In this document: piece by piece, positions 22,701 to 42,719 of the stretch
Position numbering within the stretch: position 1 is the stretch's first letter
Layout of the letters: each line of letters starts with the position of its first letter
Assembly: GCA_025526915.1 (NCBI GenBank)
Contig: JAHLKH010000007.1
Span: 186,001 to 250,000 of the forward strand
DNA length: 64,000 bases
Reading direction: 5' to 3'
Origin: Entophlyctis helioformis
Taxonomy: Eukaryota > Chytridiomycota > Chytridiomycetes > Chytridiales > Chytriomycetaceae
Translations under genes and position numbers: made by a program
Notes under the pieces: model-generated
Told to the model about the DNA's origin: nothing
Database searches by the model: none
The model's input: the letters and a program-made list of their open reading frames with translations, nothing else

Positions 22701-25700
22701 GCTTGCCCTCTGGGAAGAAGAGCTCGATCGATCCTTCTAGATTCTCCGTGTCTGGCGGGATCACCGGCTTGACCTCGGTGCGCTCACACCCATAGTTGAT
22801 GATCGAGAATATCGCCATGGTCTCCTCTCCGAGTGGCACGATGGGCATGAAAACCTCGGGCGGATCGAATGCGAGCGACGGCTCGACCGAGCTGCCCTGC
22901 ACCGAGATGCCAAAGTCTGCGTGCAGATCAAAGTAGCTGATGCTCAGCGTCGCGTTCGTCTCAAAGATGCCCGGCCTGTCTGGCTGGAACGTCACAATGA
23001 GCGACTGCGTCTGTTCGCCCGCAAGCGTGCCTGGACGGGCTCGAGCGAAAAAACATCGCCACCGTACTCAGGTTGCGGCATTTCCACTCGCCAATTCATC
23101 GGCCCATGCATGGTGTTGGTGAAGGTGAGCGTTTCCTTGGACACGGGGCTTAGATGCGAGACTGCTGTTGATCCGACCGACCGATACACAACCTTGTTCT
23201 TGAAGCTCACGCCCGTCTTGGACAAGACCACTGGCGACGGCAAACCCTCGGTGTCGATCTGCATGCAGTACTCGCTGTGCGACATGCCGAGAATGTGCAC
23301 CGGAATATCAAGCACATGCTTCGCTGCTGCGCGCGGCTGGAATATCAACTCAAACACGACGCCCTCCATGGGCATGCAGTCCAGGACATAGCAGAACCCT
23401 GGCAGATCCAAGCAGTCTGTCAGATCTGTGCTGCAGGATTCGCTGGCATGTCATGGTATGGCGCCGAAAACACAAAAACCTACCGCCTTTGGATCGTGCC
23501 TCTTTGTCAATGTTGTACAGCTCGTGGTGCGGCCGGATAACCTTCATGCGCGTTGATGCATTGGTCGCCTCGATTGGATTGCTCCGGCTGTCCAGCTTGC
23601 GGCTGCGTGCCGATGGAATCGTGCTCTGCGTCTTTGGCCTGCTGGCCAAACCACCGCCGCCATTCGTGCTCGCCACATTTGCTATTGTGTGGTGATGGTG
23701 CAGCGCCGATGCCGACTTGTCGTGCAGATGGCTGGGCGGCACTTGCGACTGGTCCAATCCACCCATCTGCTGCTGCTGCTGGAACTGCTGCTGCAACTGT
23801 TGCTGCAGATCAACCAGCCCCACAACGCGCAGACTGAACTCTGGATGCTCTCGCAGGTCCATCACGGCACGGCCATACACCCACGCATGATTGGACAGCT
23901 GGAACCGCTGGCAGCTTTGCGAGCCAATGATTGCGCCGCCGCCCATCTCGCCGCCAAGAACCGAGAACTGGATGTCGGCTTCGCGGCCTTCGTACTGGAT
24001 CGGAATGCGGAACGTCTTGGCACCGCCGACAATGCTAACGATCACCATGTCGTCAAACACGCCAACGCGAGTAGGCGACGCCGTGACTTGGAGCTCCAGC
24101 ACGCCATTGCCGCCACCGGCAATCATGCCCATCTGCGGCGTGATCTGGACCTCTGGTGTCTTGCTCACGATCGATGCCATGAACAGACAGGCAGTCAACG
24201 ATGCATTCTTGATCTTGATGGTGCGGCTGCCCTTTGGCGCGGTTTTGCCAGAGTACACCTTGGAGATGCTCGTTTGGGCGTGTGTAAAGACAGTGTTGAG
24301 GAATTGGATGCGTGCTGCCGACGACGAGGACGGAGCGGCGCTGCCATTGCCGCCGGCTGTGCCTGCGATCGCCTGTGCAATCGAGACGGGGCCGCCCACG
24401 GATGTTGGTGCTGGAGACACAATCGACGTATTCATGGTGCTGTTGGACACTGGCGTTGGGTTGGACCCGCCTGGCACGCTGCTTGCACACCCATCGGCAC
24501 CGCCTCTGCCTGCATGGCTGCTTGAAACGCCAGACACAACCGACGGCGCGCGTGAGTTGGTCTCTGACAGTGAGATGGGGATGATGCCAAGATCCAGCGG
24601 CCCTTGCTTGGTGGATGTCAGGAGCACGCAGTTGGCTGCGGATATCTCGCCGTGGCAGGCAAGCTCCATGCGGCCGGCAATGACACGCTCGTTGTTGTAG
24701 CAGTCAATGACATTGAGCACCACCGTGCGGTCGAACGTCGGCTTGAGACCAGGCGTGTACGTGACCTTGAGACGCATGTACGACTTGCTTGGCACAATGG
24801 CTTGGCGCGGCTCGATTGAGATGCGGCCCTCTATGTGATCCAGGCTGCTGAAAAACAGGTTGTGGTGGTGCTTTTCGTGCTTGTTGTGCACGTGCTGTCC
24901 GCCTGTCCCGGCTCCGGTGGTGCCGCTCGATGCATTGTCGATCCACTCAAACATGGCATCCGACATTCCATTGTTGTAGACGGTCACGTACTTTTCTGCA
25001 ACCGGCAGGTCCTGGCTCAGCTTCCTGCCCTCTCCGCCGTGATCGTGCTGTCCATGGCCCTGGCCCTGGCTGTGACTGTGCAGCTCGGCTTGGCCGCTAT
25101 ACTCGGTATGCGAGTGTCCAAGAACCATGTCGCTTTGTGCCGTCCCAGGCCGCTCCACATCGTCGTCTCTCACCGGCCCAAACCGCGTCGACGCCGAGAT
25201 GTCGACCTCGAGATCCATGCGACTCTGGCTCAACTCGAGCGCGACCGGAATGACATTGGCATGGATGGGTATCTGGTACCTGTACCTTCCGTTGATGATG
25301 TACGTCAGCCGCCCCTCAAACTTGCCCAGAACGTGGTTGCAGTACGAGACCTCAAAGCCCAGCACCGTCATGGTTGGGATGACCTGCTGGCTTGGTGTCA
25401 CGCCCAAGTGAAACTTGCGCTCGGGTCCGTCGGCGCGCTTTTCGTGCAGCTGGATCGACAGGTGCACAGGCACCTTGGACGGCGTCGCGTTGAGAAAGTT
25501 GAGCGGCACACGCGTGGTTGAGTGGATGGTGATGTCGCCCAGATCAATCTCGCTGACTGCCGCATACACGTTGGCCAGATCCGTCGCAGTCAGCGCAGCC
25601 TCTGGCGGCACGATAGGCGGCGGTGTCGCTGGCATTGGCAGCTTGGCAAACAGGTCGAATCCGCCAGCAGGCTTGGGCCGGTGAACAACAGGCTCGGACA

Positions 25701-28674
25701 GCTTCTCAAACTGCATCTGCAGCTTCCTCTGATCGCTCTCGACCAGCTGCGACGACAGCTGCTTCTGCAGTAGCTTGCTCATCATCACCTTCTTGGCTGT
25801 TGCGATGCTCTCGACGCTTCCGCTCTCGCCATCCGCCCTGTACGGCTTGATAAGGAACAGGCAGTCGTCGGGCTCTGGCGGCGCAAGACCGTTTTCTGGG
25901 TCGATGTGCGACAGATCGTCGTGCTTGACAAGGTGCCGCAGATCAACCATGACGCCGTCGTTCTGGAAGTAGTGGTCGCGCTTGAGCTTGAGGCGGCTGG
26001 CGCGCGATGACCGGATATAGTCAATGTACATGTGTCTATGAGCGTTCTTTGTTTCCCACTCTGGGTTAACAGTCGCGGTTGCAAGCCCATGGGCTGGCAA
26101 GACGGGCTTGGATCTCTGTAGCACTGCAAATCGCACGCGGTCCTGGATGGCACCTGCTTTGGCGACCGCAACTCCCATGTGCGGAATACCGCCATTGCCT
26201 GCCCATCCCGGCACCATCCCGGCACCTCCCGTCGCGGCAGAGCTTGACGGGCCGCCTCCACTCTGCAAAACAATAGCCGCAGTGCCAGCTTTCGAGATCA
26301 TGTCAGCACCTGCACCGTGTGAGCCGCTGCATCGAACAACCACCACACCTGCACTCTGTCCAGGACTAGCAGCCGTCACAACAGCCGAGTTGCCGCTTGA
26401 CTTGGCTGCATGCGACTGTGCAGGATGCACGGCAGGCGCACACGACGCGATCAAACCCAGCGGGATCTGCTCGACAACCGACTTGTCGCAGATGCGCTCG
26501 CTCGCACAGACCATGTCGGCAGCCTCGAGAAAGTCCGGCCCAAAGTCGCTCGGGAATATCTCGCAGTGCGTCGTCTCGTTGAAATTGCCCAGCTGCCTCG
26601 GTCGGAACACCACGTCCACCGTCACGCTCTGCAGCGGTCCAAGCCGTCCAGCAGGCGGCGTGAAACTAAACTGTGCAATCTTGGGGAACTTGAAGCGGAA
26701 GCCAAGCTGATCGCTGCTGTTGGTGAGCCGCACCTGGAGAGCCGTTGTGCCTGATTCGTACACGGTGGGAAACGACAGCTTGTCGGTCGACAGGGCAGCT
26801 TGCAGCTCACAGGCACGGCCAGTCAACATAATGTCGATGGGCTCCTCGCCCGCAACGTCCTGGCCACCCTCGATCTTGAGCTGCATGGGCACCTGGTACG
26901 TCTTGTCTGGAGCGACAGGCTGGTTGGTCTTGAAGCCGTACATCAGCTGTGGCTTCTGCGGGCTAAACGAAAAGTGGATCATGGACGATGTCTGCGGCTC
27001 GAGCACGCCCTCGGTCGGATGGATGCCAACGGCAGTGCGGTTCTCGGCGTTTTCCTCTGCAAGCGACGCGTAGCCGCTGTGGTTGGCACGCAGGTACTTT
27101 GATCCCGGGACGACTGGCGCGCTTTCGCCAGCGTGGTTGATGGCCCATTTGAGCGGCTTGGACGAGCGGTTTTCGATCCGCACGGGCAGACTGGCGCGCT
27201 GGCCGTAGTAGATGACACCGAAGTGCAGGTGGCGAGGGTCGAGGTCGTGGTTGCCGTTGGCGTTCCGCAGACGCAGTTTGTGCTGAACGACATTGGCTGT
27301 GATGGAGAGATGCATGCCGTGATGATTGCCGTGCGGATCGCGCTTCGTCTTTAGGGACGGCAGCTCGTTGCGCAGCTCGATCTTGACATCGCCAGAGAAC
27401 TGGCCGGCGACTGCAGGCAGGTACTCGATTTTGATGCGGCAAGTGCTTGGATGCTCGGATTCCTCGACGCTGGCATCTTGCGGGCCGAGAGTAAAGGCCT
27501 GCGGCGTGACGCGGATCTGCAGCAGGCGGTCGTACGAGCAGCGCACACTGGCGACACGCTTGCCGACGTTGCGCACTTCAACATAGCGCACCGTCCAGTC
27601 GGGCAGCTGATCAAGCGCAGGACAGTCGACGTCGAGATCATTCGTTGTCTTGAGTGGCTTGCCGGCCCAGCCCTTGTCGCGGATGAACTTGGATCGTTTC
27701 TCCTCAGGCGACTCGCTGGTTGCGTGCAGAGCCTTGAGCTGGCTTGCTGCGTTGCGACTGAGAACAAGCGTGCCAAAGTCGACAGCGCCGTCAAACTCGA
27801 GCTGCGGACCGGCGGGATACGCCTCGAGTGGAACAACGATGGACTCGCTGCCGCGGACGGCAATGACGACACGGTCCATGTACAATCGCAGCGATGGATC
27901 GCTGGACGGCTTGCTGCCATCAAACGACGACTTGACGGATGCTGCCGGTGTTGCTGCATCTGCCGCAGCTGCCACAAGAGACGGAGCCTTGTCGTGGCCT
28001 GAGCTTCCTCCTCTGGCAATCTTGAGACCAGGAGCAGCCTTTGCGTTGACGCTGCTGCCCTTGGATGCGTCGCTGCTGCTGTTTCCCAAGGCACCTCCAA
28101 GCGGCGGTGCGCGAAAGATGACCTTGACTTCCTTCTCGAGGCCCGGCGAGATGAGGATATCGCCCATGGGCACATCCTTTGCGAGCTGGAACAGACGCGT
28201 TTGAGTCGTCGAGAGCGAGATATGCTGGACCGTCTTGGAGTAGTTTTTGATGCTGAGCGTGCAGCAGTGCTCCGAGCCGGGCTCATAGTCCGAGATGGTG
28301 ACCAGCGGCGGATCAACACGGACCGAAAAGTACTGCTCGAGATGCGGCTTGCGCTCGAGCGACTGAATAGACTTGTAGCTCATTGTCGACAGGCCTGTGA
28401 AGAAGGTGGAGCGGCTCCCCTCTGGCGGCACGGTCGGCTCGCGTTTTGTTGTCTCGTAGAAGTGCGGCCGAAACTCGTGCGTGCCTCCGACAAACTTGTA
28501 CAGCGGGTCTGCGTTGTCGCGGTTGGCGTCTCGCTGCTGCTTGATGCTGATGGGTACCTTGTTGGCATTGGCGTATCCGGCGTACTTGAGCAGCGGACTG
28601 CCCTTGCTGGCCTTTGGATTCGCAGCCATTGGCGCGTCAATCTCGCCAATGTCCGTCGTGCGGACGAGCTTCAT
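16797..28674 (-). CDS. CFAP47: CFAP47-like giant axonemal protein (ASH repeats, central calponin-homology region)
   Basis: One gene of about 3,600 codons in roughly 16 exons. Exon 1 is exceptionally long (28674-23484, about 1,730 residues). Later exons include 23425 to about 22403, a CH-domain pair near 22340-22009, 21920-21423, 21359-20636, 20332-18900 with an in-frame intron at about 19754-19831, and smaller ones down to the stop at 16797. The N-terminal half repeats Ig-like ASH/MSP modules (VRVDPPLVTISDYEPG, IKNYSKTVQHISL, ITIEPGQTSTLTVNFLPF). The middle has calponin-homology signatures (FPSAFIASNGRLLIDFIQSL; SVLLANLLLSHIPSLK). The C-terminal part has further ASH modules (VGEFMYKIDGKATIP, RDIVQETFVVRNVSDDDADF). 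This order matches CFAP47, an inner flagellar component. One base appears missing near 23020 (EPVQARL to AGEQTQSLIV). One intron may use a GC donor (exon end 22403). Whether exon 1 belongs to the same transcript rests on splice-phase continuity only. Confidence 0.78.
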
Positions 28675-28749
28675 CGCGCGTTATCGTTTTCGGGTTGAGG
28701 TGAAGCTGCAGATCTTTACTCGCAAGGAACCAGCGACACAATCGCCACC
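28675..28749. promoter_or_regulatory. 75-bp divergent promoter between CFAP47-like and kinase genes
   Basis: Only 75 bases separate the two opposing ATGs (28674 minus, 28750 plus). Both promoters and 5' leaders must fit here or overlap the coding regions. The kinase start has a strong Kozak context (gccaccATG). No TATA box or X-box is visible. Confidence 0.5.
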
Positions 28750-33196: not shown

Positions 33197-36100
33197 TCAT
33201 TGCTTGATAAAGATCAAGTACTGCGCATGCACGATCGGCATCACGCGCCGGCACCCTACACGTCCAGCGCGCTCCGACCGCCCCTCGGCCGCCCACTCGT
33301 CCGCATCTTCGCGCAGCCGCTCGCGCAGCTCGTCCACGGCCATCAGCTTGCGGCACGCATAGCCCTCGGGCACCACGGCCGTAAACTCCTTGAGCCGGAA
33401 CTGCCCTGCCGTTTGCGCCACAAGGTCCTCGTGCACGAGCACAGACAGCGGCACAAGACGGTTGGGCATCCTGAACTTGGCGACTTCACAGCTGGCCGAG
33501 GTAGTCGCACTTGTGTCGCTGGCGCTGTTCGCGGGTGCTGGGTTCAGCTGCATACTCTTGCCAACGTCGTCCTGGATCGACATCTCGTTGATCCCAAAAC
33601 ACAGCTCGTGCACGGGATCGCTGGCCGGGTCCATGCCGTCGGGATACGCGTCGCGAGACTCGAGCACGACACGCACATCCTTCACGCCAACAATCAGAAA
33701 CGCGCCGCGGTTCATGCGGCTGGCCGCTTCGAGCGCAGTCTGCACCAGAAAGGCGCGGTACTGCGAGATCCACGTGCCGTTTGGAAGGAGCGCCGTTGAC
33801 GGGATGCTGAGGTGCGGCACAAACACGACGGATGGCGACGGAAGCCGTCGGTCGCCATCAGCCGTTGCGCTGTCGACATCGAGTGGCGGTGCCGACAGCA
33901 GCGATCTCAGGTATGCAGCATCGTCCTGCCCCTCTGGCGTCAATTGTGCCAGCAGACCCTGCACAACACGGGCATGATTAGTCACTATGCTGTGCATGCC
34001 TTGCATACTCGGGCACTCACCAGTTCAAGGAGTCGCCGGTTGTTCTCGCGGATACTGCGCGCGCGTTCACGCTCGTACTCGGGCAGGTTCGCTGCACCTC
34101 GGACGTCAGCAGCTATTCCAAAAGTCATGGCCACACACTGCAAACAGTGCCACGCACCATCAATCTCTTCGTCGCTGTCATCGTCTCCATCCTGTTGCCC
34201 GCCTCCATGATGACTATAATCATCGTCAGGCGGGTCGCGTTCAGCACAAATGTCGTCGTACACAGCGCTTGCCAGTAACTGCGTCCAACAAAGCCAAGTC
34301 AGTCGGTATGCACACAGCCCCTCACGCCAGTCTCGCTGCTTGGACGCATGTACCTGGTCTCGGAACTCGGGAAACGAGATCTGCTCCCAGTACGTATCGT
34401 CCTTGCCAAACCGTTGGATCTGCGTGTGTATGCATCCATGCGTCCACCAGTCCACCGACCGCCTCCATGTCAGCGTCTGATCCCCATGCGCGGTACCATC
34501 AGCCAGTCTGAGCCTTACAATCTTGGACATGGCAAGCTTGGGCAGCGAGTACCGGGCCGTGACCTTGAACATCCAGACCGTACCAAGAACAGACCGTTTG
34601 CGGTCAATAGGACACCGCGGCACGCTGCGGAATGTGCTACGCTTGGAAACAGCCGGAAGATCCATGTCGAGACACTCTTGGATGCTCGGATACACGGCCG
34701 GCTTGTGTGCCTTGCGGAACACGGCGATGTACTCGTGCGTGAACATGAGAAAGTCGTACAGCATCGACAGATACGATCCGAGCGGCGCCATTTGACAATG
34801 CCGTTGCCGCTTCAGGAACTGTGCAGCGTGCAGTCAGCCTCCAGTCGTCCAGCCCGCATCCAGCACCAATCGGTCTCACCAGCTCCTCAATCTCAAACCC
34901 GCCGTCCATGTATGTGCGGATCGTTTGGTACGATATCGGCTGGTAGTAGCAGTCGCGTCGGTTGTCGCCAATCCCAAGCGTCACTCGGCCGTTCCACTTG
35001 AGCAGCCGCCACGACTCGGCAACCACGCGCGCCATCTCGCTCTGGAACTCGGCAGGGTCCGGGAACCGCGACAGATCGCCATCGATATGCGAGCTGTACG
35101 CGACACAGTCCTTATAAGGCGGATGCGAGAGGACGTGGGCATAGCTTTCAGACTCGAAGAGCGGCCCAGTCAGGTTGCGCGAGTCGCCGTGGACGATCAT
35201 GGGTCGGTAGACGGCCGAGATGCGCATCGAGGGCGGCATGAAGAAGGATGCGTTGCGTTGGGCGAGAGCGACGGCAACAGGGTTGATGTCCACGGCACAG
35301 CAGCGCCGTTCGAGGAGAAACGATTCGATAGCGTCCGTGCCGCGGCCAATGAAGTTGGACAGGACTCGGTCGCCACGCTGGGTGTATCGCAGCAGCGACC
35401 ATCTCACCAGCTGTGGAAGCCACGTACCTGTCAGAGAGAGCATCATCAATGTGCATCGCGTCAGCAACCACCGTGTCAACCACTGCCCAGTACGGCATCC
35501 ATGATCAGCCGCACCGTGATAGTCAGATCCAGAATGCGTGGCCCAGCGCGGTGCACGGCCGGGCACATCATAGTACGTGCTGTCCATGAACAGCGAGAAC
35601 AGCTGATCGTCCTGTGGCGCATAGGTCGACAGGAACGTTGGCGTCATGGCCGCCGTGCCCATGGCTTCTTCCTCGGCAGGACGACGGGCCGCCTTGCGTG
35701 TCATGTACACGTCGTACGCCTCGTAGTCTGCCAGGCCAATCAGCTCACGAGCAATAGGGTCTTGCAGGATGATCGGGTCGAGGAATGCATTGGCGCCGAG
35801 ACCACCAATGCCGTAAGCGCTGCTTTCCGAGCCTTGGTCGTGGTAAGGCGCCAGGGCATCTGTCACCGCAGGCGTCCACCTTGATCCGAGATGCGTGCTC
35901 GGACGTTCATCTGGATCGGATGAAGGCTCGTGCTGTGGCGCAGATGAGCCCCAAAGCACCATCTCCCCTCTTGGATTCGGGAACAGTGTCTGGCTGTCGG
36001 GGCTGTTCGCACAGCGACTGCCGACGTCGAATATGGATGCCGGCTTCGGCGCAGCGAGACGATGCGGATTGCCAGAAGAGAAGGCAGCGGTGACAGCCTC

Positions 36101-39100
36101 GTGAGCAGTTTTAAGGCGGTGCTTGAGCGCACTGCCAAGCTGGTCCGTGTTGATCTCGAGGCGGATGGACGCAGGAGCGAGCAGGAAACACGCCTCGCAC
36201 AGAATCATGCCATTGAATCCTGCCATCGGTGGCGTGAGTTCTTTGAATGCCTGCAAGGCGGTGCGACGGCACCATGCACGTACCACGGCGCCACGACGAG
36301 CCGCAGTTGCTCCAGCAGAAAGCGCAAACTGGATCGCGTGGCTGCTGCTTGAGTGGCTGCGGTTTTCTCTTGCTCCTGTTCTTGGGCATCATAATCGCCT
36401 GAGACTGATCGGCCCGTTCTGCCATGCGAAAGGATGTGAGCCGTCCATCCATCGATCCGGGACACAAGTGCAGTAAAACTCACGAGCCTCCTCGTCAATC
36501 ATGTCCTGAATACGCTGCCGTTCCTGCGCATTGGCTTCCTTTCGGCCCTCGCGTGCTAGCACCCACAAGTCAGCATCGTACTGGGAAAAAAGACTCGCAC
36601 AGACCACCACTTACTGGTTTGCGAAAAGTCTGCCTTGCCATGCGCATGATCGCTCGGAAACGCATTCTCAAAGCATCCAAGACACAGATCAAATGTGGTG
36701 TAGTAGTCGTGCTGCATGCACACTTGGCACGTATGCCACGGCTTGCTGTCGTTTTCGTCTTGGCCAAGCTTGGCCGCACACACGTCACAGCTGTACACGT
36801 CCTCGTAAACGTCTGTCGCGCCACACAACAAAAGTAAGCAACTCTCCACGTCGTAGACTGCAGCCGTGGCAGGCTGGCTCACCGATTCGGTTCAAGAACG
36901 CCTCGTGCGTGGGACACCAGTACAGGATCCCTTGCTCGAAATGCGACAGCGGTTTGCCCGTGCACGCCAGATGATAGCTCTTCATGCACTTGACATCAAA
37001 GCATCCAATCTGCCCATACTTTGGTCAGCCACCAACAGTCAGCAACAGCCAGCCGCCCCAAACCTTACCGTGGCCCCCTTTCCCTTGCATGCCGTGCAGC
37101 GCATGTTGCGTCCACGCCGCACAGCTCGCAACACATTGTACCACTTGGCGTCGCGGCCCTCGCCAGAGACGTGCACTTCGGGCGAGAACCGTGCGCACGC
37201 AACATGCACCCAAAACACCTTTTTGCGTCTCTTGCCTAGGTTGGTCCCCGCCGCACTTGCCAACACCAGCGCCGTCTCGGTCACCGCCTCTCCGCCCACA
37301 CGCGCAGTCGACGTGGACGATGTTTTGGATGTTGACGACGCCAAGAACGGCATCTCAACAAACGGCCCAACGACATTCTCGGCATCGTCATTGCAAAACG
37401 CGCAAACGCGGCGTCCGATGTATGGCACGCGGCCCTCGCTCAGAGCGGCAAAAAAGTCGGCGTCGAAACGGTCGGCCTCGAATGTGGTGACAAACTTGCC
37501 GCCGGTCTGGTTGGGCAGCATCTGGCGGCCCGTGGGCAGGACCTCGAGGATTGGCTGCATGGCAAACGACGACCGCGGATGCTCGTGGAACGGAAAGTTG
37601 CACTGGAAGCAGAGAAGACAGAGATTGAACGACGCTGGATGGTCCCATGCAGCATGCGTCGACGGATGTTGCTGCTGCTGCTGATGGGCAGGCAGTGACG
37701 CCTCGCAGTAGGTGCAGTAGTACCGGTACTGGCGGATACGGTCGCCGCACTGGTTGCACCGGATCTTGGACTGCGCGGGATCGTCGTCCATCTCATCGTC
37801 ATCAATGTCGTCATGGTAGTTGGGGACATGTGCATGATCGTGGCCGCGAGCTGGGACAACAGCGTTATGAGGGCTGGAGACTGATGTCGCGTGCGCGGCG
37901 ACTTGCAGCGGCTTCCTCGACCGAGCAACAGAGGCAACAGCGTCTCGAGCAAAGCGCACAATACCCATGCCAGGCGTCTCGATATCGTCATCGGCATCCT
38001 GAGTGCGGTCACAATCTGCCACAGCCGAAGAAGCAGGCTCGCCACGCTCGACGGCGTCTCGACTCGGATCCCTGAACACGACCCTGATATGGACCGGCTT
38101 GGTCGGGAGTGTTGGCTGTGCAGACGCCTCCAGTGTTGGAGCGCTTGGTTCCAGCTCCTCGGGCGGGACGATTGCAGGCGACAGGTACTTGCGTCGCACG
38201 GCTGGTTTCCGAGGCTGCCCCTGAATAGCCGGTTGGCTTCCTGCAGCTGGCTGCGAGTCTGCAACTGCGGGCAGAGATCCGCTGGTAACAGGATCGTCTG
38301 GCGACAGCTCAACAATGCGGCTCGAGTCCAGCATCTCGGGCTCGGTTTGCATTGCAGCCTGTGCAGCCCTCGGCAGCCTCCCAGCAAGGCTAGAATCAGC
38401 CCTCGTGCCAGATCGAGCATGGCCATGCTGACGCCGCACTTGTGAAGGCTTGACAACATCAACGCGACTGGTCTCGTCCGCGTTGCTGTCGCCACTCGCG
38501 GCGGTCGTTGCTGGCGCGACAGTAGCCGACGTTGGTGCATGTCGCAGTCGCAGCCTTGCGCTGGCAGCAACAATCCATTCGTCAAACTCGGGCCCCCAAC
38601 CCTCGTACCGCACGAGGATACGGCCGTGGCGGAACTCGAGCATGTACCCTGGCCACCACGTGCCCTGTCCATCCGAAACCTCGACGAGCCGCCGTGGCGC
38701 AAAGATGCTGCTGCTTGCAGGCCGAGAAATTGTGCCAGCACGAGGCAGTTGGACAGTATGCGCGGATCTGCGAGACACCGAACTGGAAGATCGGGGCTTG
38801 GACGCTGACGCCTTGGCGTGGCGCGACTGAACTGCTGCCGTGGCTGTCGTAGCTGACGCGGCAGAGGTCGATGTGCACTTGGGATCAGAGCAGAACCATA
38901 ACTGCTCAACGTCGAGTGCTCTGGATGGCTGGATGTTGGGCGTATGGCATTTCTGGTGGTATCGTGTCCCGCAGCCGTCGCAAATGGCAATCTGGTTGTG
39001 CAGGTCAGCCGGGTCCTCATGGCCAGAGCAGATCGAGCATGTCGGTGGAGAAGCAGCCATCTGGGTATCGTCATCGCCTGCCGCGGATGCAGCTGGAGCC

Positions 39101-41511
39101 TGCGCAGCATGATCATCAGGCTGGCCTGAACGAGGAGCCAAATCAGCCGCCGTTGCAGCAGACTCTGCCAATGGGTCGAGCGGCGAGACTTTGGCCTGCA
39201 GTTCGCGCCGTTTCTGATTGTGCTGCTGCTGCTGGCGACGACGCCGATCGCGCACAGAGAAGCCAAACACCTCGATGCTGCTGGGCACGAGCTCATCGTC
39301 AACTTCGTCGTCAACCACGATCTCTTGGAACACGTCGTCATCGTCGTCGTCGCCATCGTCAACAGCATCATTTCCACCAGCACCTTGCCCATCATTCCCG
39401 GCAGTAGCAGTTGTATGGCTCTTGATGCCAGACGTTCGCGGCCGCAGTCCAGCAGGAGCACCAGGAAGACTGATGACACGCACACGCACCGACTCCCAGT
39501 CGATCCACTCGTCGTACTTGGACCCCCAGCCGTCAAACGTGATGCGGCGCTTGCTGCCGCGTGCCTCGACGACTTGGCCTGGCCAGTACGTGTATGCCGC
39601 GTCGGCGACCTCAACGCGAGATCCGACTGGCAAGCCCCCAATGATCTGAGTGGACTGGATTTGACTCATGGCTGCCAGGGTGCGGCGCGTTGGGAACAGA
39701 CGCGTATCCATGAGGTCGACAACGTGCTGCAGCTGTGGTTTGTTGAGGGATCCCTTGGGACGACCACGGCCGCGCTTTGGCTGTGTTTGCTGCTGCTGCT
39801 GCTGCTCTGGCGGTTGGTGCGCTTGCCTTTCATCCACGCCATGACTGGCGGCAGGCTGCATTCGCGGCTGTTGTTCAGGCACGCTGGGCTGGGCACTTGA
39901 CTCGCGTGACTCGTCCATGTCTGAGCGAGTGCTTGGTTCAGGCGATGGGTCAAGTATGTCAGGCGACGATTCATGCGACTGCGACTGATCGGCTGCTTGT
40001 GCCATATGGAACTGCTGGAACTGGAACTCGTCGAGACGGCGCTGCCGCCGCTCGTCCTCTTGCTGCTTGTACCGCTGGTTCATGAGATCGCGGATGCTGA
40101 CGTTGGCGTGCCAGGATCCAGACGCTGTCGGAATGAACTTGCGTTTGAGCGAGCCCTTGGGACGGCCGCGGGGACGCCGCGGGGCTGAATCTTGCGATCT
40201 CTTGTCGCCATCAAGGCCGTGCTCCTGGTCGTCGCTGCCATCTGGTGCCTCCTCTGCGTCCGCCTTGGCGTCAGCAGCAGCATCAACGACAGGCTCTTGT
40301 GTCTGCGCAATGGGAACAGGATCGAACGTGGCTTGAGACGTCTGGTCTGGCACATGTGACTCGGGAAAAGCGCGATCGGCAGGGCGGACTTGTGTTGGTA
40401 TGATGCCCGCATGAGACTGCCCAGACGAACTCGACTGCATCTGCTGTTGCGGCGCCTGTTGCGCCTGTTGTGCAGCCATGTCTTGAAAGCGGGCCATCTC
40501 AAGCTCCATCTGGCGCGCCAGCATGGCCGACTTTGTGGATCCTTTGGGGCGGCCACGGCGACGTTTGGGTTGGGGTTCATCGACAGCTGCATCTGCAGAT
40601 GTTGTGGCGGATGTTGTGGTGGATGTGGTTGCAGATGCAGATGCCGAAAAGGGAGTTGCAGGGCCGATCGTCTGATTATCATTAGGTGGTAGTGTGGTGG
40701 TCGTGGTGGCGATGGGCGTTGTCGTTGAGGTGCATGAAGCAGCTGTTGGTGTCAATGCGGTTGTCAATGCGGCTGTTGCTGTTGATGCAGGCGGCAAGGA
40801 CGGCAGATCATGGCCGAGATTGCTGGTCACGGGGGCTTCGTGGGGCTGCTCGCTGAGACGGGCAGCGACGGGCGACGGGCGATGCTCGAGCTGCACGAGC
40901 TGGTCCAGACGGCGCTTGAGCATGGCCTGCTTGGTCGAGCCCTTGGGGCGTCCACGGCCTCGCTTGGCTGGATGCGGCTGCTGCTGCTCTCCCGCAACGT
41001 CCTGCGGATCAACAGCATCGATGGAGTTGGATGGGGCAGCGTCGGTTGCTGGGGCAACAGCAGCAGCGAGGACAGCGAGGACAGCGACGCAGCGACGGTG
41101 GCAGCGACGGTGGGCGACGTGGCAGCAACGGACAAGAGTGCAAGGAGAAGGAGGCGGGTTAGTTGCGCACGATCCGCAGACGCCGTTGCGCACGGCAGCC
41201 GAGCCACGCACCAGACAGAGCCGCCGCACTCGAGGCGCACGGCACGGTGGCGGCGGCGCGTGTGCCTTGGTCTTTCTCGCCGAAGAACCGAAAATCGATT
41301 GGGATCGACTCGGTATCAGCAGGGCTGGGGAAGCGGCGGACGGCCAGTCTGCCGGCCAGTTTGTCAGCCGGTCTGCTGGCCAGTCTGCCAGTCTGCCAGC
41401 CAGGAATGTCTGTAAACAGACACGCAGGCCAGCCAGCCAGCCGTGCACACGCACGCGCCGGCTGTCCACAGGATCTCGCCTGTCGCGGTGGCCACGGTGA
41501 TGGCGCTGCAT
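33197..41511 (-). CDS. Chromatin-reader / DNA amino-methyltransferase fusion protein
   Basis: Eleven exons in perfect phase: 41511-37069, 37009-36883, 36812-36615, 36555-36484, 36418-36284, 36240-35494, 35427-34880, 34818-34354, 34278-34158, 34097-34021 and 33958-33197, giving 2,564 residues. Modules in order: four AT-hooks with core RGRPKGS (near 40950, 40550, 40165, 39765); Tudor/chromo-barrel-like module 1 (YWPGQVVEARG, GWGSKYDEWID); PHD finger (CSICSG...CDGCGTRYHQKCH, WFCSDPKC); Tudor-like module 2 (WWPGYMLEF, EGWGPEFDEW); ZZ finger (CNQCGDRIRQYRYYC); extended PHD (CAFCNDD...WVHVACARF, CTACKGKGATIGCF, SYHLAC, WCPTH); second ZZ finger (CDVCAAKLG, FDLCLGCFENAF); GATA-like Cys4 (CAFCWSNCGSSWRR, LCEACF). 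The methyltransferase has SAM motif FIGRGT, VDINP, HGDSRN, catalytic-loop HPPY and TRD-like downstream parts (LGIGDNR, MFTHEYIAVFRK). The last exon resembles a degenerate second methyltransferase lobe. The start is uncertain: 41511 is the first in-frame ATG, but codons before about 41080 look non-coding. One intron is only 43 bp. Confidence 0.85.
35114..35125 (-). other. Methyltransferase motif IV (HPPY)
   Basis: Codons CAT CCG CCT TAT on the minus strand encode HPPY within VLSHPPYKD, at the position of the catalytic (D/N/S)PP(Y/F/W) motif of DNA amino-methyltransferases. It follows the SAM-binding motif FIGRGT, so the motif order is I before IV. Confidence 0.75.
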
Positions 41512-41585
41512 TGTCGCGCTGGCCCGGGTTGCCCACCAGCCCAACAGGTAACAGCCCAGCGGCCCGCATCGAGCCCCGACACGCC

Positions 41586-42719
41586 ATGGATCCCACGCAG
41601 CCCGCCAGCTTCCGCCACTGCTTTGCGACGCTCAACGGCCGCAAGCACCACTACGTCGAGGAGGGCCGCCCCGAGAGCGGCGGCGCTGCCCGCCCGCTGG
41701 CCGTCCTTGTCCACGGCTTCCCGGACCTGTGGTACGGCTGGCGCTACCAGATCCGCCCGCTCGTCGACGCTGGCTTCCACGTTCTCGTGCCGACCATGAT
41801 TGGCTACGGCCAGACCGAGTCGCCTGCCGTGACCGAGGCCGACCAGGCCGCCCTTGTGCGCTACTCGTACAAGAGCGTCGCCAACGACCTCGCTGCGCTG
41901 CTGGACCATGCCAGCGGCGTGGCGGGCACCAGCGCCGTGTTCCTCGGCCACGACTGGGGCGGCATGGTCGTCTGGCGGGTCGCAATGCACCTGCCCGAGC
42001 GGGTGCGCGGCCTGGCCGTCTTCTGCACGCCGTTCCAGCCGCCGCACGGCCAGTACGTGCCCATCGAGCACATTGTCAAGGTGATGCCGCACCTCGGGTA
42101 CCAGCAGACGCTCGCGGCGTTTGAGACGGGTCCGATGGTCGCGGCCAACATCGACGTGTTTGTCGATGCCATGTTCCACTCGGGCGCGAGCGACGAGGCC
42201 ACCAAGGCCGGCCTGAAGGAGCGGCTGGCCAAGGCCGAGCCGGCGGCGATTGCCGGCCTGCTCAGGATGTTTGCGTCGGGCCCCGGCATGGCGCGCCCGC
42301 TCAGCGAGCAGGAGCTGGCGTACTACCGCGAGCAGCACCGCGCGGGCGGGTCGCTGGTCCACGCGCTCAACTGGTACCGCACGCGCCGCATCAACTACGA
42401 CGACGAGCTGCCGTTTGCGGGCGAGGCCGACACGGCCGTGTCGACGTCGGTGGCGGCCGAGGACGGCAAGAGCCGCAAGGTGTGGTTCAAGGACCTGCCG
42501 ATCCGCTTTGTCGGCGCGACGGGCGACCCGTTCCTGCCCATGTCGATGGCCAAGTCGATGGAGGCCAACGTGCCGTCGGCAGTCATCTCGGCGGTCGAGG
42601 CCACGCACTGGCTGCTCGCGGAGAACCCGGCGGCGGTCAATGCCGCGCTGCTGCCGTTCATGGCCGGGCTCAAGGCGGCGTGGGAGAGCGAGCAGGCGAG
42701 CGCCGCGGCCCGGCTGTGA
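41586..42719 (+). CDS. Epoxide hydrolase (alpha/beta-hydrolase fold), single exon
   Basis: Intronless gene of 377 codons. It opens an epoxide to a diol through a covalent ester on an aspartate. Features: oxyanion motif HGFP (residues 43-46), GYGQT, nucleophile elbow GHDWGG with Asp at 123, a cap region with tyrosines (LAYYREQH, NWYRTRRINY), an acid in GATGDPFLPM and the catalytic histidine in VEATHWLLAENP. Third codon positions are nearly all G or C, and it is one of the few genes in the window without introns. This fits either strong expression or horizontal acquisition. Its ATG is 75 bases from the first in-frame ATG of the divergent methyltransferase gene. Confidence 0.93.
   Translation: MDPTQPASFRHCFATLNGRKHHYVEEGRPESGGAARPLAVLVHGFPDLWYGWRYQIRPLVDAGFHVLVPTMIGYGQTESPAVTEADQAALVRYSYKSVANDLAALLDHASGVAGTSAVFLGHDWGGMVVWRVAMHLPERVRGLAVFCTPFQPPHGQYVPIEHIVKVMPHLGYQQTLAAFETGPMVAANIDVFVDAMFHSGASDEATKAGLKERLAKAEPAAIAGLLRMFASGPGMARPLSEQELAYYREQHRAGGSLVHALNWYRTRRINYDDELPFAGEADTAVSTSVAAEDGKSRKVWFKDLPIRFVGATGDPFLPMSMAKSMEANVPSAVISAVEATHWLLAENPAAVNAALLPFMAGLKAAWESEQASAAARL

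Follow-up and report, generated by a model that had tools for sequence, protein, structure and literature searches.

A candidate chromatin-targeted DNA amino-methyltransferase conserved in early-diverging fungi

We analyzed a 64,000-nucleotide stretch of the genome of the chytrid Entophlyctis helioformis (GenBank assembly GCA_025526915.1, contig JAHLKH010000007.1, positions 186,001 to 250,000 of the forward strand; the window), focusing on a minus-strand gene at window positions 41511 to 33197. The gene probably codes for a DNA amino-methyltransferase that is targeted to chromatin, a member of a family conserved among early-diverging fungi. Its catalytic domain is related to that of a type II restriction-modification (R-M) enzyme of prokaryotes. 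A first-pass annotation, made from the sequence letters, had proposed that a single protein here joins DNA and histone readers to a DNA amino-methyltransferase. This is supported: an extended PHD finger (ePHD) and the methyltransferase lie on one chain in 128 of 141 homologue rows, so the two parts are not always separate genes in relatives, an arrangement that by the annotation's own terms would have refuted the proposal.

Conservation of the family

The homologues come from two protein searches, with 21 and 140 hits, which left 141 rows in hand, one of which is the gene's own deposit (P0022, BC831DRAFT_275831). The smaller search scored only the 7,999 candidates with the most shared words, and its query included about 20 residues of a discarded reading of intron 6. 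The larger search, from which 120 of the 140 hits were in hand and 20 were not listed, had three residues of a discarded exon 2 acceptor in its query. Neither was exhaustive for other groups, and the rows are not independent (many are from Coemansia and Mortierella). Among the matches listed, every named row is an early-diverging fungus; we take the groups represented to be Chytridiomycota, Neocallimastigomycota, Mucoromycota, Mortierellomycota, Glomeromycota, Kickxellomycota, Zoopagomycota, and Basidiobolus.

We counted modules with profiles that took the window's modules as seeds and were iterated over the 141 rows. The methyltransferase was found in all 141 rows, a linker in 136, a C-terminal second half (C-half; see below) in 132, ZZ-like modules in 132, the GATA-like finger in 129, the ePHD in 128, Tudor modules in 123, and a PHD finger in 3. 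Tudor, ePHD, GATA-like finger, methyltransferase, and C-half occur together in 115 rows, and the ePHD is flanked by ZZ-like modules in 114. The AT-hook string RGRPKG is present in eight. By this census, AT-hooks and the PHD finger are rarer additions to the core architecture. The 13 rows without an ePHD are 380 to 1,150 amino acids (aa) long, and three of them are labelled partial.

The catalytic motifs are strongly conserved (SHPPY in 139/141 rows and FxGRGT in 135/141). The two rows that lack SHPPY appear to be incomplete gene models: P0015 begins after the motif, and P0118 skips from VDINP to DCVAYS, as with a missed exon. With cut models included, a 51-row alignment shows GDNR as invariant and SHPPY as conserved at 90% or more.

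The first-pass annotation knew of no described protein with the complete domain order and ranked the gene as the window's best candidate for a new system. With its four AT-hooks and PHD finger, the exact order is local, whereas the core architecture belongs to a conserved fungal family of long standing, whose members are already in the protein databases, largely annotated as hypothetical proteins. Reader arrays differ within the family, as seen in P0096 (Gorgonomyces haynaldii), which has several PHD fingers between its Tudor modules. Two chytrid models named kinesin kif3b, P0102 (3,996 aa) and P0138 (3,851 aa), also contain the family; their annotation is probably over-joined.

Gene model

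Eleven minus-strand exons join into one open frame of 2,537 codons followed by TGA, and all ten introns are GT-AG introns of 59 to 99 bases. P0022 is identical to the spliced model over 1,880 of 1,960 residues, introns 1 to 6 included, as counted after the exon 2 acceptor had been adopted from P0022 itself. A second, deposited gene model thus likewise fuses readers and methyltransferase, and the in-phase, stop-free junctions claimed in the first-pass annotation are borne out.

Exon 1 (37069 to 41511; all feature coordinates are on the minus strand unless stated) encodes the AT-hooks, both Tudor modules, the PHD finger, the first ZZ-like module, and the first part of the ePHD. Its start is uncertain, the deposited protein starting at M 40923. 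Exon 2 (36883 to 37009) completes the ePHD, exon 3 (36615 to 36812) holds the second ZZ-like module, exon 4 (36484 to 36555) is linker, and exon 5 (36284 to 36418) has the first half of the GATA-like finger. The second half of this finger and the N-terminal part of the methyltransferase share exon 6 (35515 to 36219). Exon 7 (34880 to 35427; PDLC03376, E = 6.4e-27) encodes the methyltransferase core with FIGRGT, VDINP, SHPPY, and GDNR, and a genome search with it gave one match. Exon 8 (34519 to 34818) ends the domain and starts the second methyltransferase-like half, which continues through exons 9 (34354 to 34419), 10 (34021 to 34278), and 11 (33197 to 33958, with the stop).

Outside evidence was used to place two junctions. 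For exon 2, acceptor 37018 was dropped for 37009 (GAT/IGCF), as in P0022 and the homologues. For intron 6 (35514 to 35428), and with it the exon 6 donor, we followed the homologues, which show YYDxPGRAPRWATHSGSDYHGTW in place of the rejected frame-0 reading ahead of exon 7. At 34637 to 34879, P0022 runs through intron 7, ends early, and loses exons 8 to 11. Intron 7 is nevertheless very likely real, since the homologues continue past it with exon 8 residues (window, FLKRQRHCQMAPLG.. HEYIAVFRK; P0002, IVKRQRYCQMAPLG.. HEFVAILRK).

Catalytic domain

The catalytic domain (34711 to 35728) spans introns 6 and 7. PADLOC model PDLC03376, a type II R-M methyltransferase, matches it at E = 2.6e-40 over profile positions 14 to 249 of 249. 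The first-pass assignment to the DNA amino-methyltransferases can therefore be sharpened to this family, in its HPPY class, on the basis of the profile match. The motifs named in that annotation are all present: FIGRGT (motif I, 35336 to 35353), VDINP (35279 to 35293), and HPPY (35114 to 35125), with the S-adenosylmethionine (SAM)-binding FIGRGT ahead of the catalytic HPPY. PF01555 reaches E = 1e-5 (26.1 bits, under its cut-off of 26.7). A PF01555 search of the whole genome gave 0 matches, a null that reflects an intron-split and divergent gene, not an absent one.

NCBIfam gave weak matches to named DNA methyltransferases, and every one with a stated base is adenine specific. In the frames and pieces scanned, neither a THUMP domain nor PF02384 (N6_Mtase) had a hit at E up to 1, and MT-A70 (PF05063) had no hit; the motif is HPPY, not the DPPW of MT-A70.

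Reader modules

Four AT-hook cores (RGRP) lie at 40945 to 40956, 40546 to 40557, 40159 to 40170, and 39757 to 39768, the first of them upstream of the deposited start and thus outside P0022. Along with the PHD finger (38869 to 39048; PF00628, E = 4.2e-8) and the ePHD (zf-HC5HC2H, 36893 to 37413, split by intron 1; PF13832, E = 3.4e-13; PF13771, E = 2e-11; PHF6, E = 8.7e-9), they agree with the first-pass annotation. The structures nearest to the ePHD are PHF6, KMT2D, and JADE1.

Two Tudor-type modules had also been proposed. The first (39475 to 39642) is recognized by PF02820 (MBT, E = 1.2e-5) and by the solved structures of L3MBTL3 (E = 4.5e-10) and PHF20L1 (E = 1.5e-7), and weak chromo-like matches (E = 0.07 to 0.14) fall on it. 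The second (38542 to 38706) is supported by PHF20L1 (E = 6.7e-6), whereas its MBT match (E = 0.0052) is below the cut-off. By sequence, the nearest structures for both are L3MBTL and PHF20/PHF20L1.

The proposed two ZZ fingers and GATA-like finger stand by cysteine pattern and conservation in homologues and fall short in Pfam. ZZ-like module 1 (37561 to 37770) had no Pfam ZZ hit, module 2 (36625 to 36807) matched PF00569 at E = 0.084, and the GATA-like finger (CxxC-x17-CxxC, 36179 to 36338, split by intron 5) matched PF00320 at E = 7.2e-4, the latter two below cut-off. A model of the homologue P0019 (804 aa) had a mean predicted local distance difference test score (pLDDT) of 68.4. In ten-residue blocks, pLDDT was 83 to 91 for the Tudor barrel, 70 to 92 for the ZZ-like and ePHD blocks (one block at 65), and 61 to 69 for the GATA-like finger.

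A degenerate second methyltransferase half

The first-pass domain list missed the C-half. The last ~400 residues (33200 to 34629, spanning introns 8 to 10) contain a degenerate second methyltransferase half. With hhalign, the fungal C-half (122 rows) matched the second copy found in two-part prokaryotic relatives at 1.1e-14 and their first copy at 2.8e-5. The prokaryotic second copy (12 two-part proteins) matched first copies from 64 loci at 2e-17, with L036 left out of this first/second copy comparison (its row was not split). Controls (reversed, column-shuffled, and ePHD) scored no better than 0.004. The second copy has no SAM-binding segment in the alignment.

In an AlphaFold2 model of the Geranomyces homologue P0001, a protein made up of only the methyltransferase and C-half (pLDDT, 85.3; predicted template modeling score, 0.89), our reading of the element list is that the second half has the strand and helix order expected of a methyltransferase fold. 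Pfam found no match, chromodomain included, in the two C-terminal frames. The sequence comparisons indicate that the second half was already present in prokaryotic relatives.

Prokaryotic relatives

A tblastn search with exon 7 found a Fusobacterium vincentii gene (32.6% identity over 99%) that clusters with genes for D12, DpnII, and Mrr. This enzyme belongs to a very large family: of 7,998 candidates scored, 7,991 matched at an E of 0.001 or lower. The same query gave no match in 50,697 phage records. We then scanned GTDB genomes; all prokaryotic locus counts refer to the best 80 of 554 relatives. Prokaryotic relatives show 33 to 40% identity, and HPPY is present in 80/80 loci. The window domain, aligned with the Fusobacterium locus L009 and five other bacterial rows, shares with them HPPY after FxGxGT. 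L009 itself is on a 2.1-Mb record labelled plasmid (NZ_CP084075.1) that has a DNA polymerase III-like gene by our reading of the frame and may be a chromosome.

Within 6 kb on each side of these relatives, profiles grown from the Fusobacterium genes found a D12 (Dam-type) gene at 59 of the 80 loci and DpnII at 45 (both at 38, neither at 14). Pfam identified 35 DpnII and 13 D12 frames among 77 chosen neighbour frames beside the enzyme. Thirteen of the 80 relatives exceed 400 aa, and 12 of these were shown with the second half. They come from Aminicenantes, Acidobacteriota, Nitrospirae, Caldisericum, Elusimicrobia, and Thorarchaeota. The two loci from Thorarchaeota (Asgard archaea; L028 and L036) have an HPPY enzyme of ~500 aa with a D12 gene nearby, and neither genome has a DpnII match.

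A quick tree of 83 rows (31 fungal, namely the window and 30 of the 141; 13 two-part prokaryotic; and 39 one-part prokaryotic, namely 38 of 67 loci and L009) placed the fungi on one side of a branch with an SH-aLRT of 100. The tree is midpoint rooted and has several long end branches, so the two-part prokaryotes may or may not be the fungal sister group.

In five genomes (Aminicenantes, two Saccharicenans), DpnII adjoins the two-part enzyme. Their strongest D12 match is E = 4.1e-11, compared with ~1e-69 in two comparison genomes. One of the five has no D12 match, three have a match of 21 to 22 bits that falls within the frame encoding the two-part enzyme, and the fifth has D12 at E = 4.1e-11 also in another frame, which PF01555 matches too. 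Protection of GATC by the two-part enzyme is a lead only, given that other methyltransferases occur in all five genomes and that the genomes may be incomplete.

Proposed mechanism and alternatives

We propose that, before the lineages of chytrids and terrestrial fungi split, the methyltransferase was captured from prokaryotes and acquired its Tudor, ZZ-like, ePHD, and GATA-like modules by fusion. The Tudor, PHD, and ePHD modules would bind histone tails or DNA and dock the protein on chromatin, while the AT-hooks and the GATA-like finger would help to grip DNA. The SHPPY domain would then move a methyl group onto an exocyclic amino group of DNA, adenine N6 being a likelier target than cytosine N4. 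Adenine is favored by the DpnII/Dam neighbourhood and the weak matches to adenine-specific models, not by the motif. The C-half may assist DNA binding from within the same molecule, in a role like that of Mta9 and METTL14 toward their own partners. Guidance by chromatin marks, as the first-pass annotation suggested, is plausible from the architecture. A more specific version of the proposal is that the gene represents a third, undescribed DNA amino-methylation system of early-diverging fungi, in addition to MTA1c and MetB. In this view, a two-part methyltransferase of DpnII-type systems was domesticated long ago, and its writing is guided by histone state and possibly still directed to GATC-like sites. 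We put this forward tentatively, at somewhat less than even chances.

Several observations weigh against the proposal. The best solved folds for the catalytic half (model residues 17 to 273, to which the structure searches were confined) include the tRNA m2G enzymes Trm11, TrmN, and Trm14, and NCBI labels some bacterial relatives "TRM11 family." HPPY matches neither SPPY nor DPPY, and the motif does not settle the target base. The ZZ-like and GATA-like labels depend on cysteine pattern and conservation, with Pfam scores below the cut-offs. Compared directly, the fungal C-half and the fungal methyltransferase matched at 0.0037, scarcely better than the best shuffled control (0.0041, from another pair); the link between them runs via the prokaryotic relatives. 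As to GATC, the tool cut-off counts D12 matches in four of the five DpnII genomes, and all five have further PF01555 or PF02384 enzymes, so the sequences link the enzyme weakly to this site.

The strongest alternative is the same chromatin-targeted enzyme with N4-methylcytosine (4mC) as its product, which would give early-diverging fungi a 4mC system. PF01555 (N6_N4_Mtase) spans N6A and N4C enzymes, HPPY differs from the DPPY usual for adenine, and rotifers have a eukaryotic 4mC writer from another PF01555 branch (PMC8885841; for this and all other papers cited by PMC number, our statements refer to the portions of the text available). The prokaryotic relatives, however, lie near DpnII (GATC adenine systems) and D12 adenine methyltransferases, and the weak NCBIfam matches with a stated base are all to adenine enzymes. 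We regard 4mC as unlikely, at perhaps one chance in five.

The fold similarities raise the alternative that the protein is bound to chromatin but methylates nascent RNA (m2G or m6A), as a relative of Trm11/TrmN. These enzymes have an exocyclic amino substrate, as proposed for the fungal domain, and are among its closest solved folds. They differ in having THUMP, unmatched in the fungal frames scanned. We know of no R-M linkage of Trm11, whereas many prokaryotic relatives of the fungal domain are within R-M gene clusters and the type II R-M profile covers nearly the whole domain. An RNA substrate is thus improbable. It is less probable still that the methyltransferase moiety has no activity and that the protein serves only as a chromatin scaffold. 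METTL14 provides a precedent as an inactive partner, and the C-half is itself degenerate. Mta9 is another inactive methyltransferase partner in eukaryotes (PMC11258239). Against this stand the conservation of SHPPY and FxGRGT across the rows and the invariant GDNR. That two adjacent genes were mistakenly joined is scarcely credible: the two kinesin-named relatives do look over-joined, but here the GATA-like finger and the methyltransferase start share exon 6, and the deposited model and the 128 joined rows have the same arrangement.

Comparison with known systems

The chromatin-targeted enzyme that we favor resembles the prokaryotic PDLC03376 family in near-whole catalytic alignment, motif order, and HPPY. 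In contrast to the fungal protein, the prokaryotic forms inspected had no chromatin modules that we could see. The closest conceptual parallel to the fungal protein is rotifer N4CMT, also a PF01555-class bacterial amino-methyltransferase joined to a Royal-family reader, for which a "histone-read-DNA-write" idea was put forward (PMC8885841). N4CMT is permuted, with catalytic SPPY before the SAM site, whereas the fungal protein has the reverse order and HPPY; and N4CMT has a C-terminal HP1-type chromodomain, whereas in the fungal protein several modules precede the catalytic domain and the second half follows it (PMC8885841). These differences in order, motif, and modules indicate independent capture. 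The rotifer authors described N4CMT as without eukaryotic homologues (PMC8885841).

Mucor MetB, like the candidate proposed here, is a bacterial-derived DNA amino-methyltransferase in early-diverging fungi. It consists of PF02384 and a target-recognition domain, and the available text does not mention chromatin readers for it (PMC11258239). MTA1c/AMT1 (Mta1-Mta9-P1) methylates DNA adenine in early-diverging fungi, as the fungal protein may, and also pairs an active with an inactive unit; it differs in its MT-A70 family, DPPW motif, and separate subunits. Elsewhere in the E. helioformis genome we found MT-A70 at four places and four PF00145 (5-methylcytosine) matches on three contigs. The genome would thus have several methylation systems, this gene among them. 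Two of the MT-A70 places (contigs 63 and 395) have equal scores and the same DPPW surroundings, probably from a duplicated or haplotypic contig.

In the literature searched, we found no account of the reader-methyltransferase family; Iyer et al. 2016 (BioEssays) may list it. That work reportedly counts no fewer than 13 cases in which eukaryotes captured adenine methyltransferases, the fungal family possibly among them. A 2026 review table of fungal writers has DNMT-type enzymes, MTA1c, and MetB (PMC13297926), and a 2025 survey of eukaryotic N6-methyladenine (6mA) discusses AMT1 and a PHD in ichthyosporean p1 (PMC12695648). For Rhizophagus, the methylome study looked for 6mA enzymes by way of MT-A70 (PMC8298701), and PF01555 was searched for in three protists, with none found (PMC12344493).

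Neighboring genes

Directly upstream of and divergent from the methyltransferase gene is an alpha/beta hydrolase frame (41163 to 42719, plus strand). A long frame at 23350 to 28680 (minus strand) has CFAP65/ASH-type Ig-like domains of a flagellar protein, which fits a zoosporic fungus. Pfam recognized no restriction enzyme among the eight long window frames scanned; not all window genes were modelled.

Implications

In early-diverging fungi, 6mA accompanies active chromatin, and what directs it there is open (PMC12695648). The fungal protein would unite chromatin reading and the writing of a DNA mark in one chain. The family occurs in species with published methylomes (Spizellomyces, P0023; Phycomyces, P0007; Rhizophagus, P0056; and Mucor, P0105), and it is not among the candidate enzymes in the portions of the literature available. 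If the enzyme is active, these methylomes need re-examination; if it is inactive, the conservation of an SHPPY enzyme would need explanation. After the rotifer enzyme, the family looks like another such capture of a restriction-system methyltransferase for chromatin, independent and older. The presence of the joined protein in many early-branching fungi suggests that these fungi may place DNA methyl marks by reading chromatin.

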